From: an uncultured Pelagibacteraceae bacterium
Lineage (GTDB): Bacteria > Pseudomonadota > Alphaproteobacteria > Pelagibacterales > Pelagibacteraceae
Reading direction: 5' to 3'
Length of the DNA stretch: 64,000 bases
Assembly: GCA_902594655.1 (NCBI GenBank)
Contig: CACJMW010000002.1
Location: 38,518-102,517, forward strand
Shown: positions 14,340 through 27,700 of the stretch, piece by piece
Position numbering within the stretch: position 1 is the stretch's first letter
Layout of the letters: each line of letters begins with the position of its first letter
Translations under genes and position numbers: made by a program
The notes under the pieces: generated by a model
Seen by the model: only the letters and a program-made list of their open reading frames with translations
Told to the model about the DNA's origin: nothing
The model's database searches: none

Positions 14340-14450
14340 ATGTCTAAAAGATATAGCGGTAAATCATTTAAAGATTCTAGCGTAATGAAAAAAGCTAAAC
14401 TTTCTTTAAAGGAAAAAAGGAAATTAAAGAGAGAAAAGAGAAAAAAATAA
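14340..14450 (+). CDS. Small highly basic protein of unknown function
   Basis: 36-codon ORF, 2 nt after fabI stop: MSKRYSGKSFKDSSVMKKAKLSLKEKRKLKREKRKK*; absent from supplied ORF track (short). Confidence 0.45.
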   Translation: MSKRYSGKSFKDSSVMKKAKLSLKEKRKLKREKRKK

Positions 14451-14462
14451 GGGGCGTTCTGT
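14446..14462 (+). repeat. 17-bp direct repeat, left copy
   Basis: AATAAGGGGCGTTCTGT, identical to 15584-15600. Confidence 0.9.
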
Positions 14463-14508
14463 GTCCCCCGAGAACCAAATCATACCAAAATACCTAGGTT
14501 ATTGGAAT

Positions 14509-14574
14509 ACTTCATTGAAGACTTCATTGAGAGTTTGACCTTTTTTCAAAAACCCTGTTTCTAGACTTCATTGA
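14509..14574 (+). repeat. ACTTCATTGA iteron cluster, left (3 copies)
   Basis: ACTTCATTGA at 14509-14518, 14521-14530, 14565-14574. Confidence 0.85.
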
Positions 14575-14589
14575 GAATTGGGGTAAAAT

Positions 14590-15441
14590 TTGAATATGAA
14601 AAAAATAATAAGAATTAGTGAGCATGAGCACTATGAGGGTGAAGTCAAAGATGGAGACATACCTCATGGTCAAGGCATTCTTATAGATGAAAAAAGAAAA
14701 GTTAAGCATGAAGGAACTTTTAAAGATGGTTTTCGTGATGGACTTGCTACAGCAACCACTATTGATAAACAAGGAAACGAGATAAGACTTACAGGTATTT
14801 TTAACAAAGATAAATTCGGACCAGATTATGGTTTTTACGAATTACCAAATAATGAATTATATGAAGGTGAATTAAAAGATATGAATTTCCATGGAAAAGG
14901 AAAATATAGATTTTCAAATGGAATGATAAAGGAGGGAATATTTGAAAAAGGTGAAATTAAAAATGTAACTAAAGAATATCCCTTCATAGAATTTGCAGAA
15001 AAATATTTCAATATATTTTTAAAAGAAACTAAACCAAAATTAAAAAATGATGGCGAGTGGATTTTTACTAGTCACCCCTCTAACGAATATCAAAAACTAG
15101 TTAGAGAAAATTATTTTTTAAAAGATTTTATAAGGGAAATAATCCAAGATAACTGTAAGTCCTTATTAGTTGCATTAGAAAAATTTAACATAAAATATGA
15201 TTACAGTTTTGACACAAATCAATCTACAAATATTAATAAAATAACTTATGAAGATGGATCAAAATATAGTGGTGGAATGATCGATAATAAAAAGCATGGT
15301 CAAGGAACCATAATATTTGCGAATGGAGATAAATTTGTAGGTGAGTGGAAAAATGACAAAATGAATGGTAGAGGAACTTTAATATTATCAAATGGAGAAG
15401 AAAAAGTTGGTCTTTGGAAAGATGGCGAACTTGTTGAGTAA
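14590..15441 (+). CDS. MORN-repeat protein
   Basis: Repeated YEGEVKDG..HGQG / YEGELKDMNFHGKGKYRFSNG / YSGGMIDNKKHGQGTIIFANGDKFVGEWKNDKMNGRGTLILSNGE; MORN blocks at both ends with a non-MORN centre. Confidence 0.85.
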   Translation: MNMKKIIRISEHEHYEGEVKDGDIPHGQGILIDEKRKVKHEGTFKDGFRDGLATATTIDKQGNEIRLTGIFNKDKFGPDYGFYELPNNELYEGELKDMNFHGKGKYRFSNGMIKEGIFEKGEIKNVTKEYPFIEFAEKYFNIFLKETKPKLKNDGEWIFTSHPSNEYQKLVRENYFLKDFIREIIQDNCKSLLVALEKFNIKYDYSFDTNQSTNINKITYEDGSKYSGGMIDNKKHGQGTIIFANGDKFVGEWKNDKMNGRGTLILSNGEEKVGLWKDGELVE

Positions 15442-15510
15442 ATATTAATTTACTTTTTTATAAATCTTATAGATGCATCTACGCGTATAACGGTCAAATA
15501 TTGTTTTCAA

Positions 15511-15543
15511 ACTTCATTGAAACTTCATTGAACCTTCATTGAA
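15511..15543 (+). repeat. (A)CTTCATTGA iteron cluster, right (3 copies at 11-bp spacing)
   Basis: acttcattgaaacttcattgaaccttcattgaa; three TTCATTGAA cores at 15513, 15524, 15535. Confidence 0.85.
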
Positions 15544-15583
15544 TTTTATTTTTAGAAAATTAGTGTGGATAAGGGAATCCTTT

Positions 15584-15600
15584 AATAAGGGGCGTTCTGT
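15584..15600 (+). repeat. 17-bp direct repeat, right copy
   Basis: AATAAGGGGCGTTCTGT, identical to 14446-14462. Confidence 0.9.
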
Positions 15601-15614
15601 TGCCAGGTGCCCCT
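15588..15614 (-). terminator. Putative pnp terminator hairpin
   Basis: Minus strand AGGGGCacctggcaacagaacGCCCCTTATT directly after the pnp stop; 6-bp GC-rich stem. Confidence 0.55.
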
Positions 15615-26368: not shown

Positions 26369-27700
26369 TTATGCGGCCTTCATGTTATTATTAATTTTTC
26401 CAAAAAGCGTATTTTGGTTACTATTTTCTATTTTAACTTTTACTATTTTTCCAATATCCCGTTTATCTGCTTCTAATATAACTGAATTTAAATACTCATT
26501 TCTACCAAAGAATTTCCCTTGATGCTCTATTTTATTCTCCACAAGTACATCTATTTCTTTATGCTCTAAAAATTTATTATGGTTGATTTGATTTTTGAAC
26601 AACAAAGATTGTAGTTCAATTAATCTTTCTTTTGAAATATTATTGTCTACCTCTTTTAATTTTGATGCTTTAGTACCTGGACGAGAACTAAAGATAAATG
26701 AAAATGAATTTATAAATTTTATTTCTTTGACAAGTCTTATAGTTTGTTCAAAATCAGATTTCTCTTCTCCAGGATAACCTATTATAAAATCACTAGATAA
26801 TTTAATTAAAGGATTGATTTTAATTAATTTTTTATAAATATTTATATAGTCTTCTACCTTATGTTTTCTGTTCATAAGTTTTAAAACTTTGTCAGAACCA
26901 GATTGGATTGGCAAATGAATAAAGGGCATCAATTTCTTATTAGTTTTGTAACATTCAATTAAATCTTCTGACATGTCTACAGGGTGTGAAGTTGTATATC
27001 TAATCCTTTTTAATTCATCAAACTTTTCAAGTTCGTTTAATAAATTTGAAATTTTTAATTCATTATTATTTTCATAAAAACTATACGCATTTACATTTTG
27101 ACCTAATAATGTAATTTCTTTTGCTCCGTTCTTAATTAAATCCTCCGCTTCTTTTAAAATAGTTTTAAATGGTCTTGAGCACTCTGGACCTCTTGTATAT
27201 GGAACAACACAAAAATGGCAGAATTTATCACATCCTTCTTGAATTGTTAAAAATGAGGATATATTACTATCTGAATTTTTTATTTTGTCTAGAAAATCAA
27301 ATTTGGAAATTGTATCAAATTCTGTTTCAGTCTCTTTTTTATTTTTCTGAAAATTATTCAAAATTTTATTAATCTTGTGATATGATTGAGGTCCAATGAC
27401 TACATCAATGAAGGGTTCTCTTTTTAACATTTCCTCATTTTCTGCCTGAGCAACACATCCTGCGACAATCATTATAGGTTTTTTTTTATTTAAATATATT
27501 TGTTTAATTCTTCCAACTTCATGAAAAACTTTTTCTTTTGCTTTATCTCTAATATGACACGTATTAATAACATAACAATCTACATTGTTTTGGTCTTTAG
27601 ATTTTTCGTAACCAATATCTTTAACTAGATCTGTTATTCTATTGCTGTCATACACATTCATTTGACAGCCGAAGGTTTTAATAAATATTTTTTTATTCAC
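26369..27700 (-). CDS. miaB: tRNA-2-methylthio-N6-dimethylallyladenosine synthase
   Basis: IKTFGCQMNVYDS, radical-SAM CDKFCHFCVVPYTRGPE. Confidence 0.95.
   Translation of the reverse strand: MNKKIFIKTFGCQMNVYDSNRITDLVKDIGYEKSKDQNNVDCYVINTCHIRDKAKEKVFHEVGRIKQIYLNKKKPIMIVAGCVAQAENEEMLKREPFIDVVIGPQSYHKINKILNNFQKNKKETETEFDTISKFDFLDKIKNSDSNISSFLTIQEGCDKFCHFCVVPYTRGPECSRPFKTILKEAEDLIKNGAKEITLLGQNVNAYSFYENNNELKISNLLNELEKFDELKRIRYTTSHPVDMSEDLIECYKTNKKLMPFIHLPIQSGSDKVLKLMNRKHKVEDYINIYKKLIKINPLIKLSSDFIIGYPGEEKSDFEQTIRLVKEIKFINSFSFIFSSRPGTKASKLKEVDNNISKERLIELQSLLFKNQINHNKFLEHKEIDVLVENKIEHQGKFFGRNEYLNSVILEADKRDIGKIVKVKIENSNQNTLFGKINNNMKAA

Follow-up and report, generated by a model that had tools for sequence, protein, structure and literature searches.

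The question raised by this locus is whether the lone MORN-repeat gene lying between fabI and pnp in a Pelagibacter (SAR11) draft genome (0.90 Mb, 71% complete) is the cargo of a discrete inserted unit and, if so, what could have placed it there. SAR11 bacteria are among the most abundant cells on Earth, and in their compact genomes resident mobile elements are rarely recognised. A sequence-only reading of the window (the whole stretch of DNA analysed, 64 kb long) had proposed such an insertion. On evidence that is comparative throughout, drawn mostly from incomplete draft genomes and from loci sampled by motif, the unit at 14446-15600 is very probably a non-autonomous, site-specific mobile cassette for which an integrase would be supplied in trans.

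Table. Features of the cassette and its neighbours (positions in the window)
Feature	Position	Strand	Remark
fabI, left neighbour, 262 aa	13549-14337	+	ORF
Small basic lysine-rich ORF, 36 aa, between fabI and cassette	14340-14450	+	
Left 17-bp core copy (putative attL core), AATAAGGGGCGTTCTGT	14446-14462		
Small hairpin GGGG...CCCC re-formed by the element's left end	14451-14468		
Left arm, P'-arm-like	14463-14592		conserved among 11 elements
Left iterons 1 and 2, ACTTCATTGA, 12-bp period	14509-14530	+	
Left iteron 3, 5' of cargo start	14565-14574	+	
Cargo: MORN-repeat protein, ~281 aa	14596-15441	+	PF02493, E 3e-21
Right arm, P-arm-like	15504-15583		conserved among 11 elements
Right iterons 1-3, 11-bp period	15511-15542	+	
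Right 17-bp core copy (putative attR core)	15584-15600		
Complete tmRNA-type hairpin GGGGCACCTGGCAACAGAACGCCCC directly behind pnp	15589-15613	-	-15.4 kcal/mol
pnp, right neighbour, 690 aa	15627-17699	-	ORF, relatives known

Two identical 17-bp copies bound the unit exactly where they had been reported. They are the sole matches to the 17-mer in the window at up to three mismatches (0.12 expected), none of 100 shuffles yielded two matches, and the exact 17-mer is confined to this unit in the whole 0.9-Mb draft. The three-copy iteron cluster described for each end was likewise recovered: the window has seven CTTCATTGA words, of which six make up both clusters, at 14509-14518, 14521-14530, and 14565-14574 on the left and at 15511-15520, 15522-15531, and 15533-15542 on the right (the last starting with CC, not AC), and the seventh lies isolated at 27405 on the minus strand. 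The spacings given between repeat and iteron, 46 bp on the left and 41 bp on the right, are correct. Pfam agrees with the reading of the enclosed gene as a MORN-repeat gene, which most likely starts at the ATG at 14596 and stops at 15441; it is the single ORF of the unit, and the remark that no transposase or recombinase is present holds within these borders. A weak promoter-like match at 14562-14589 overlaps left iteron 3, and shuffles give more such matches.

The ends of the unit are direct repeats only, with no matching inverted pair of the IS or MITE kind, and phage-satellite (PICI/PICMI) genes are absent, as are the integrase and transfer genes that CIMEs also lack while retaining attL and attR, both present here. 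The sequence AGGGGCGTTCTGT is found at nearly all element ends compared, and the small left hairpin, folded alone, has energies of -7.4 kcal/mol (plus strand) and -7.2 kcal/mol (minus strand). On the fabI side, the TAA stop of the 36-codon ORF falls within the left repeat, that is, within the duplicated core. Homologues of this ORF with 80-91% identity occur in L254, L282, L120, and L105, and an att-type hairpin comes directly after it in L282 and L120. In relatives, fabI (90-92% identity) is convergent with pnp. A further motif, GCGTATAACGG, stands 5' of the right iterons in four units (the window, at 15478-15500, and L038, L217, and L229).

A sub-threshold alpha_tmRNA match on the minus strand at the right repeat, from an Rfam scan, is a real clue to the origin of the repeat; weak matches to rliF, Histone3, and CRISPR-DR16 were dismissed as chance. 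The 17-bp repeat includes the 3' hairpin sequence of the permuted tmRNA gene of SAR11 (Pelagibacter), the core GGGGCGTTCTGT being the reverse complement of ACAGAACGCCCC in that hairpin. The genome's own tmRNA gene (G000:C1:75712-76009, 223 bits) ends in the same hairpin that is formed by the right repeat and its next 13 bases. A direct repeat of the tmRNA 3' end bounds the unit, as it does ssrA islands, whose location it does not share, since it lies behind pnp and on a contig other than that of tmRNA. Joined without the element, the flanks read ...CGCCCCUUAUUUUUUU / GGGGCACCTGGCAACAGAACGCCCCTTATTTTTTT, a good intrinsic terminator (-15.4 kcal/mol), and because this is a hairpin of the tmRNA type, fabI and pnp probably converged on such a hairpin before insertion. 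In relatives, the fabI-pnp interval can be as short as 50 bp or exceed 1 kb. The suggested search for an empty site with a single repeat found one in G023, which has one intact hairpin and no second core behind pnp and belongs to a species different from that of the window. Neither a circular form nor a conspecific empty site was seen in the genomes compared, mostly incomplete drafts.

Units with such ends lie between fabI and pnp (the window, L115, L120, and L257), adjoin tmRNA (L114, L118, L122, L217, L238, L280, L281, and L287), or stand behind the RNase H gene (rnhA; L104 and L108). The same ends with other cargo, which the sequence-only reading had advised looking for, were found at all three sites (L115 at fabI/pnp, L118 at tmRNA, L104 and L108 at rnhA), and the discrete inserted unit with an att-like duplication that it envisaged is borne out by these ends bounding different cargo at other loci. 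What that reading had not recognised is the tmRNA origin of the repeat, the iterons as candidate arm sites, and how large the family is. Delimited from hairpin to hairpin (core to core), 54 non-redundant units span 0.24 to 7.5 kb with a median of 1.08 kb; some of the shortest may be remnants. Units often stand in tandem, as in the arrays at tmRNA, of which that in L287 has six cores.

The ACTTCATTGA subfamily comprises 11 units from different genomes with unrelated cargo. Among them, mean pairwise identity is 93-95% over the ~140 bp of the left end and 82% over the ~100 bp of the right end, whereas the outside flanks (43-48%, left flanks 43%) and the cargo (39-43%) are at background level. On the left, the core is followed after ~46 bp by an iteron, a second after a 12-bp step, a third after a ~44-bp step, and then the cargo; on the right, the cargo is followed by three iterons at an 11-bp step and, ~41-46 bp further on, the core. 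The 12-bp period recurs in other left ends, and other units have the same layout with other iterons (ACTTCGTGTA, ACTTCAATGTA, ACTTCATTGC, GTACATAGT, AGTGTGTGCA, CTTCGTAGTAA, CCCGTACA, and GTGACGCCA). The iteron type differs between elements and agrees between both ends of one element: the longest word common to both arms averages 10.8 bp within a unit and 8.1 bp between units (reached in 0 of 20,000 permutations), as predicted for cognate arm-type sites. Arm repeats of the same orientation stand on both sides of the core, as at lambda-type att sites, and judged by sequence the iteron clusters are laid out like integrase arm-type sites, for which they are candidates. Several iteron classes start with ACTTC, like half of a loxP arm (ATAACTTCGTATA), yet they are direct repeats, and the likeness is probably a coincidence. 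Separately, blocks resembling the left arm occur near a groEL-like gene without a tmRNA-type core (L105, L107, L109, L110, L111, and L113); most have ACATTCGCCTACATTCGCAT and then two to three ACTTCATTGA iterons, with a variable ORF next in some, and they are possibly a sister family with another target.

The cargo is diverse, and MORN, which had been put forward as the cargo of this unit, is one among many. No full-length relative of the window's MORN protein was found in 150 other Pelagibacter genomes, where matches cover chiefly its MORN repeats. Cargo ORFs run in one direction in 63 of 71 cases, and their Pfam matches include C5 and N6/N4 DNA methylases, an AlwI-type restriction enzyme, T5orf172, trypsin-like peptidases, polysaccharide lyases, DUFs, and three MORN proteins; none of the 71 is integrase-like by an integrase HMM that found its positive controls. 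One 7.5-kb unit with ACTTCATTGA arms (L229:488-7978) holds a restriction-modification set of a T5orf172 protein, a nuclease-helicase, an N6/N4-type methylase, and an AlwI-type endonuclease.

It is extremely improbable that the unit is not mobile at all, with the repeats being two terminator copies and the iterons regulator-binding sites of the MORN gene. The right core copy does keep a complete, strong terminator-like hairpin behind pnp, and similar iterons adjoin groEL without this core, as such a reading would have it; several loci with the same ends and unrelated cargo contradict it, the iterons lie 3' as well as 5' of the gene, and the MORN gene is missing from the 150 relatives. The proviso that both repeats might be simply a conserved terminator motif present at many unrelated gene ends was right insofar as the right copy belongs to a terminator-like hairpin and wrong insofar as that hairpin is no general terminator, occurring in the window's genome only at the tmRNA end and in this cassette. 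Terminator duplication without mobility was rejected on the shared ends at different loci.

The hairpin GGGGCACCTGGCAACAGAA, allowing up to two mismatches, occurs in 170 of 201 Pelagibacter genomes, and by hand count ~84 of the 201 (~40%) have at least two copies, of which tmRNA should explain one. Double ACTTCATTGA iterons were found in 14 of these 201 genomes. Across 84,980 species genomes, the iteron-gap-core pattern occurs at 44 loci, ~30 of them in Pelagibacteraceae with nearly constant spacing; the remainder are scattered among unrelated taxa, except L198 from an uncultured alphaproteobacterium, which is a real array adjoining tmRNA-like sequence.

For a mobile cassette, the mechanism proposed is as follows. 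Each end would present a copy of the core GGGGCGTTCTGT and an arm in which two to three 10-bp iterons are repeated directly every 11-12 bp, the iterons serving as arm-type sites for a lambda-like tyrosine integrase. The attP of a putative excised circle would read right iterons and arm, core, left iterons and arm (head-to-tail junction CCTTTAATAAGGGGCGTTCTGTGTCCCCCGAG), and the hairpin at the 3' end of the SAR11 tmRNA gene would serve as attB, as would copies of it elsewhere, here the pnp terminator. A helper integrase would bridge arms and core in the fashion of lambda integrase, recombining the core with the tmRNA-type hairpin, after which the host gene would retain the full hairpin and a smaller one would re-form on the opposite side. 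Since integration would leave a new core copy on the far side, further cassettes could stack into tandem arrays. The cassette would encode cargo only (here MORN), its integrase being provided by a relative that is autonomous or by a helper present only transiently, and one iteron class of cassettes would require one integrase class. Because iteron 3 lies just 5' of the cargo start codon, the integrase might, speculatively, also regulate the cargo.

Candidate enzymes are rare. Most Pelagibacter genomes have one PF00589 gene of ~307-325 aa; a tyrosine integrase of another kind stands directly at the tmRNA hairpin in two of 398 genomes (G161 and G266). The integrase-bearing element of G161 (L305:2154-8327) occupies 6.2 kb between two hairpins and has the look of an autonomous parent, whether plasmid-like or of the phage-satellite kind; besides small ORFs, it has a DUF5906 primase-helicase-like gene of 733 aa. 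At its left end it agrees at 93% with the initial 44 bp of the integrase-less units L281 and L122, and CGACCAAAT repeats are common to it and L122. GTGACGCCA/ATGACGCCA iterons occur in the integrase element of G266, whose right arm shares 91% identity along 91 bp with the right arm of L238, an integrase-less 5.4-kb unit with GTGACGCCA iterons at both ends. These arms and iterons, shared at the same tmRNA target, argue that an integrase able to serve integrase-less cassettes exists. In the model of the G161 integrase (mean pLDDT 88, pTM 0.57), three strands and a helix form an N-terminal module that is predicted to resemble arm-binding domains, and the best PDB matches are the Tn1549 and lambda integrases. 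Among 17 aligned homologues, R200 and Y313 are conserved, R281 nearly so, and H278 and H304 are nearly invariant.

An integrase-bearing relative with a matching arm was found for the GTGACGCCA class and none for the ACTTCATTGA class, neither among integrases from 398 genomes nor in IMG/VR; a short-lived or rarely integrated ACTTCATTGA helper would be a natural but unproven explanation. Iteron pairs occur on 13 IMG/VR contigs, where they look like coding sequence or isolated chance matches, and the 14-bp core occurs on 72, the 40 lowest-GC matches of which show no arm pattern; the one viral hit to the combined attP pattern is GC-rich and attributed to chance. No viral relative of the G161 integrase was found, and searches gave no meaningful match of element ends to phages and none of one left end to plasmids. 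P4-type integrases (PF13356), also considered as helpers, occur in three of 399 Pelagibacter genomes, at positions other than this site, and several other SAR11 integrases adjoin tRNA genes. Eight AT-rich viral contigs from IMG/VR (L292-L299) have apparent alpha-type permuted tmRNA genes with an identical 3' hairpin, through which a phage could itself provide a place of attachment; neither iterons nor cassettes were seen at these genes.

In another reading, an autonomous element inserted here, lost its integrase, and persists as a cis-mobilizable remnant that is now immobile. The unit has no integrase, the genome's one PF00589 gene (~318 aa) is xer-sized, hairpins are degenerate in some intervals (L257 and L120), and tandem CIMEs arising through decay are known (PMC5704250). 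Decay is expected to leave random fragments, whereas in the 54 units precise cores enclose a compact cargo, a single gene or a few, and the ends are conserved where compared. A 1250-bp element in L202 and L215 is 99.2% identical, the tmRNA flank 92.8%, and the other flank unrelated; the element is more alike than its flank, which points to a recent transfer with a putative passage of DNA between cells. A fossil origin of the window's unit is accordingly improbable.

Tandem single-gene cassettes with junction hairpins and a common cargo orientation also recall integrons, and a dispersed integrase might fold the hairpin as a single-stranded attC and so shuffle the cassettes. Against such shuffling, each element has iterons at both ends, unlike attC; the integrases found at the tmRNA site resemble those of lambda and Tn1549 rather than IntI, and an arm-binding module is predicted for them; and no recombinase ORF or attI/intI platform was found in or beside the arrays examined. 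This makes an integron-type process quite unlikely, and the SAR11 units differ from integron cassettes in their double-ended arm sites, lambda-type integrases, and target at the ends of host genes.

The trans-mobilized cassette has partial counterparts elsewhere. In Dehalococcoides, the vcr-GI are tandem islands behind tmRNA with a direct repeat of the gene's 3' end as their borders; among 31 ssrA islands, 15 have no integration module, and cis-mobilization was proposed for these, the integrase being a CcrB-family serine recombinase (PMC3146451). In contrast, most SAR11 units measure 0.3-3 kb, and an integrase is very rarely among their genes; their iteron arms match between the two ends, and hairpin copies behind pnp and rnhA are occupied as well. 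The Pseudomonas IntY islands I23, I44, and I55 share with them a position just behind tmRNA, direct-repeat ends, a tyrosine integrase, phage-defence cargo, and a lack of transfer genes. The islands differ in that a large backbone, with a shared region of ~18 kb, bears intY and alpA, and in that a jumbo phage transduces I55 (PMC12595487); the SAR11 cassettes have cargo only. CIMEs, which occur in tandem, retain attL/attR without integration or transfer genes, and are described as decayed ICEs/IMEs moving in cis with a neighbour (PMC5704250), are the class that the SAR11 units formally fit, from which they differ in being compact, with standardised ends, many cargoes, and usually no neighbouring integrase. 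Tycheposons are likewise cargo-bearing integrative elements found in streamlined marine bacteria, with RNA genes as their sites and tyrosine recombinases as their enzymes; they are tRNA-associated, span 4-200 kb, and carry a recombinase (PMC10872708), whereas the SAR11 units are ~1 kb, use the tmRNA-type hairpin, and have no recombinase aboard. What sets the SAR11 units apart from tmRNA islands and CIMEs is minimal size, cargo-neutral standard ends, several end-matched iteron classes, a scarcity of resident integrases, and the use of hairpin copies at protein genes. No prior description was found in the open-access literature searched, and this large cassette family is apparently undescribed so far.

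Being small and without a recombinase, such units would be missed by tools that seek integrases beside RNA genes. Tentatively, SAR11 may possess a distributed cassette system, in which integrases that are rarely resident would act in trans on enzyme-less cassettes of several arm classes with a common hairpin core, and streamlined genomes would obtain genes for phage defence and the cell surface from these cassettes; it would be a functional counterpart of the integron without its platform. The matched iteron classes amount to a specificity code, open to testing, that would pair an integrase with its cassettes, and, given the share of genomes with surplus hairpin copies, much of the gene-by-gene exchange in SAR11 may run through these cassettes.
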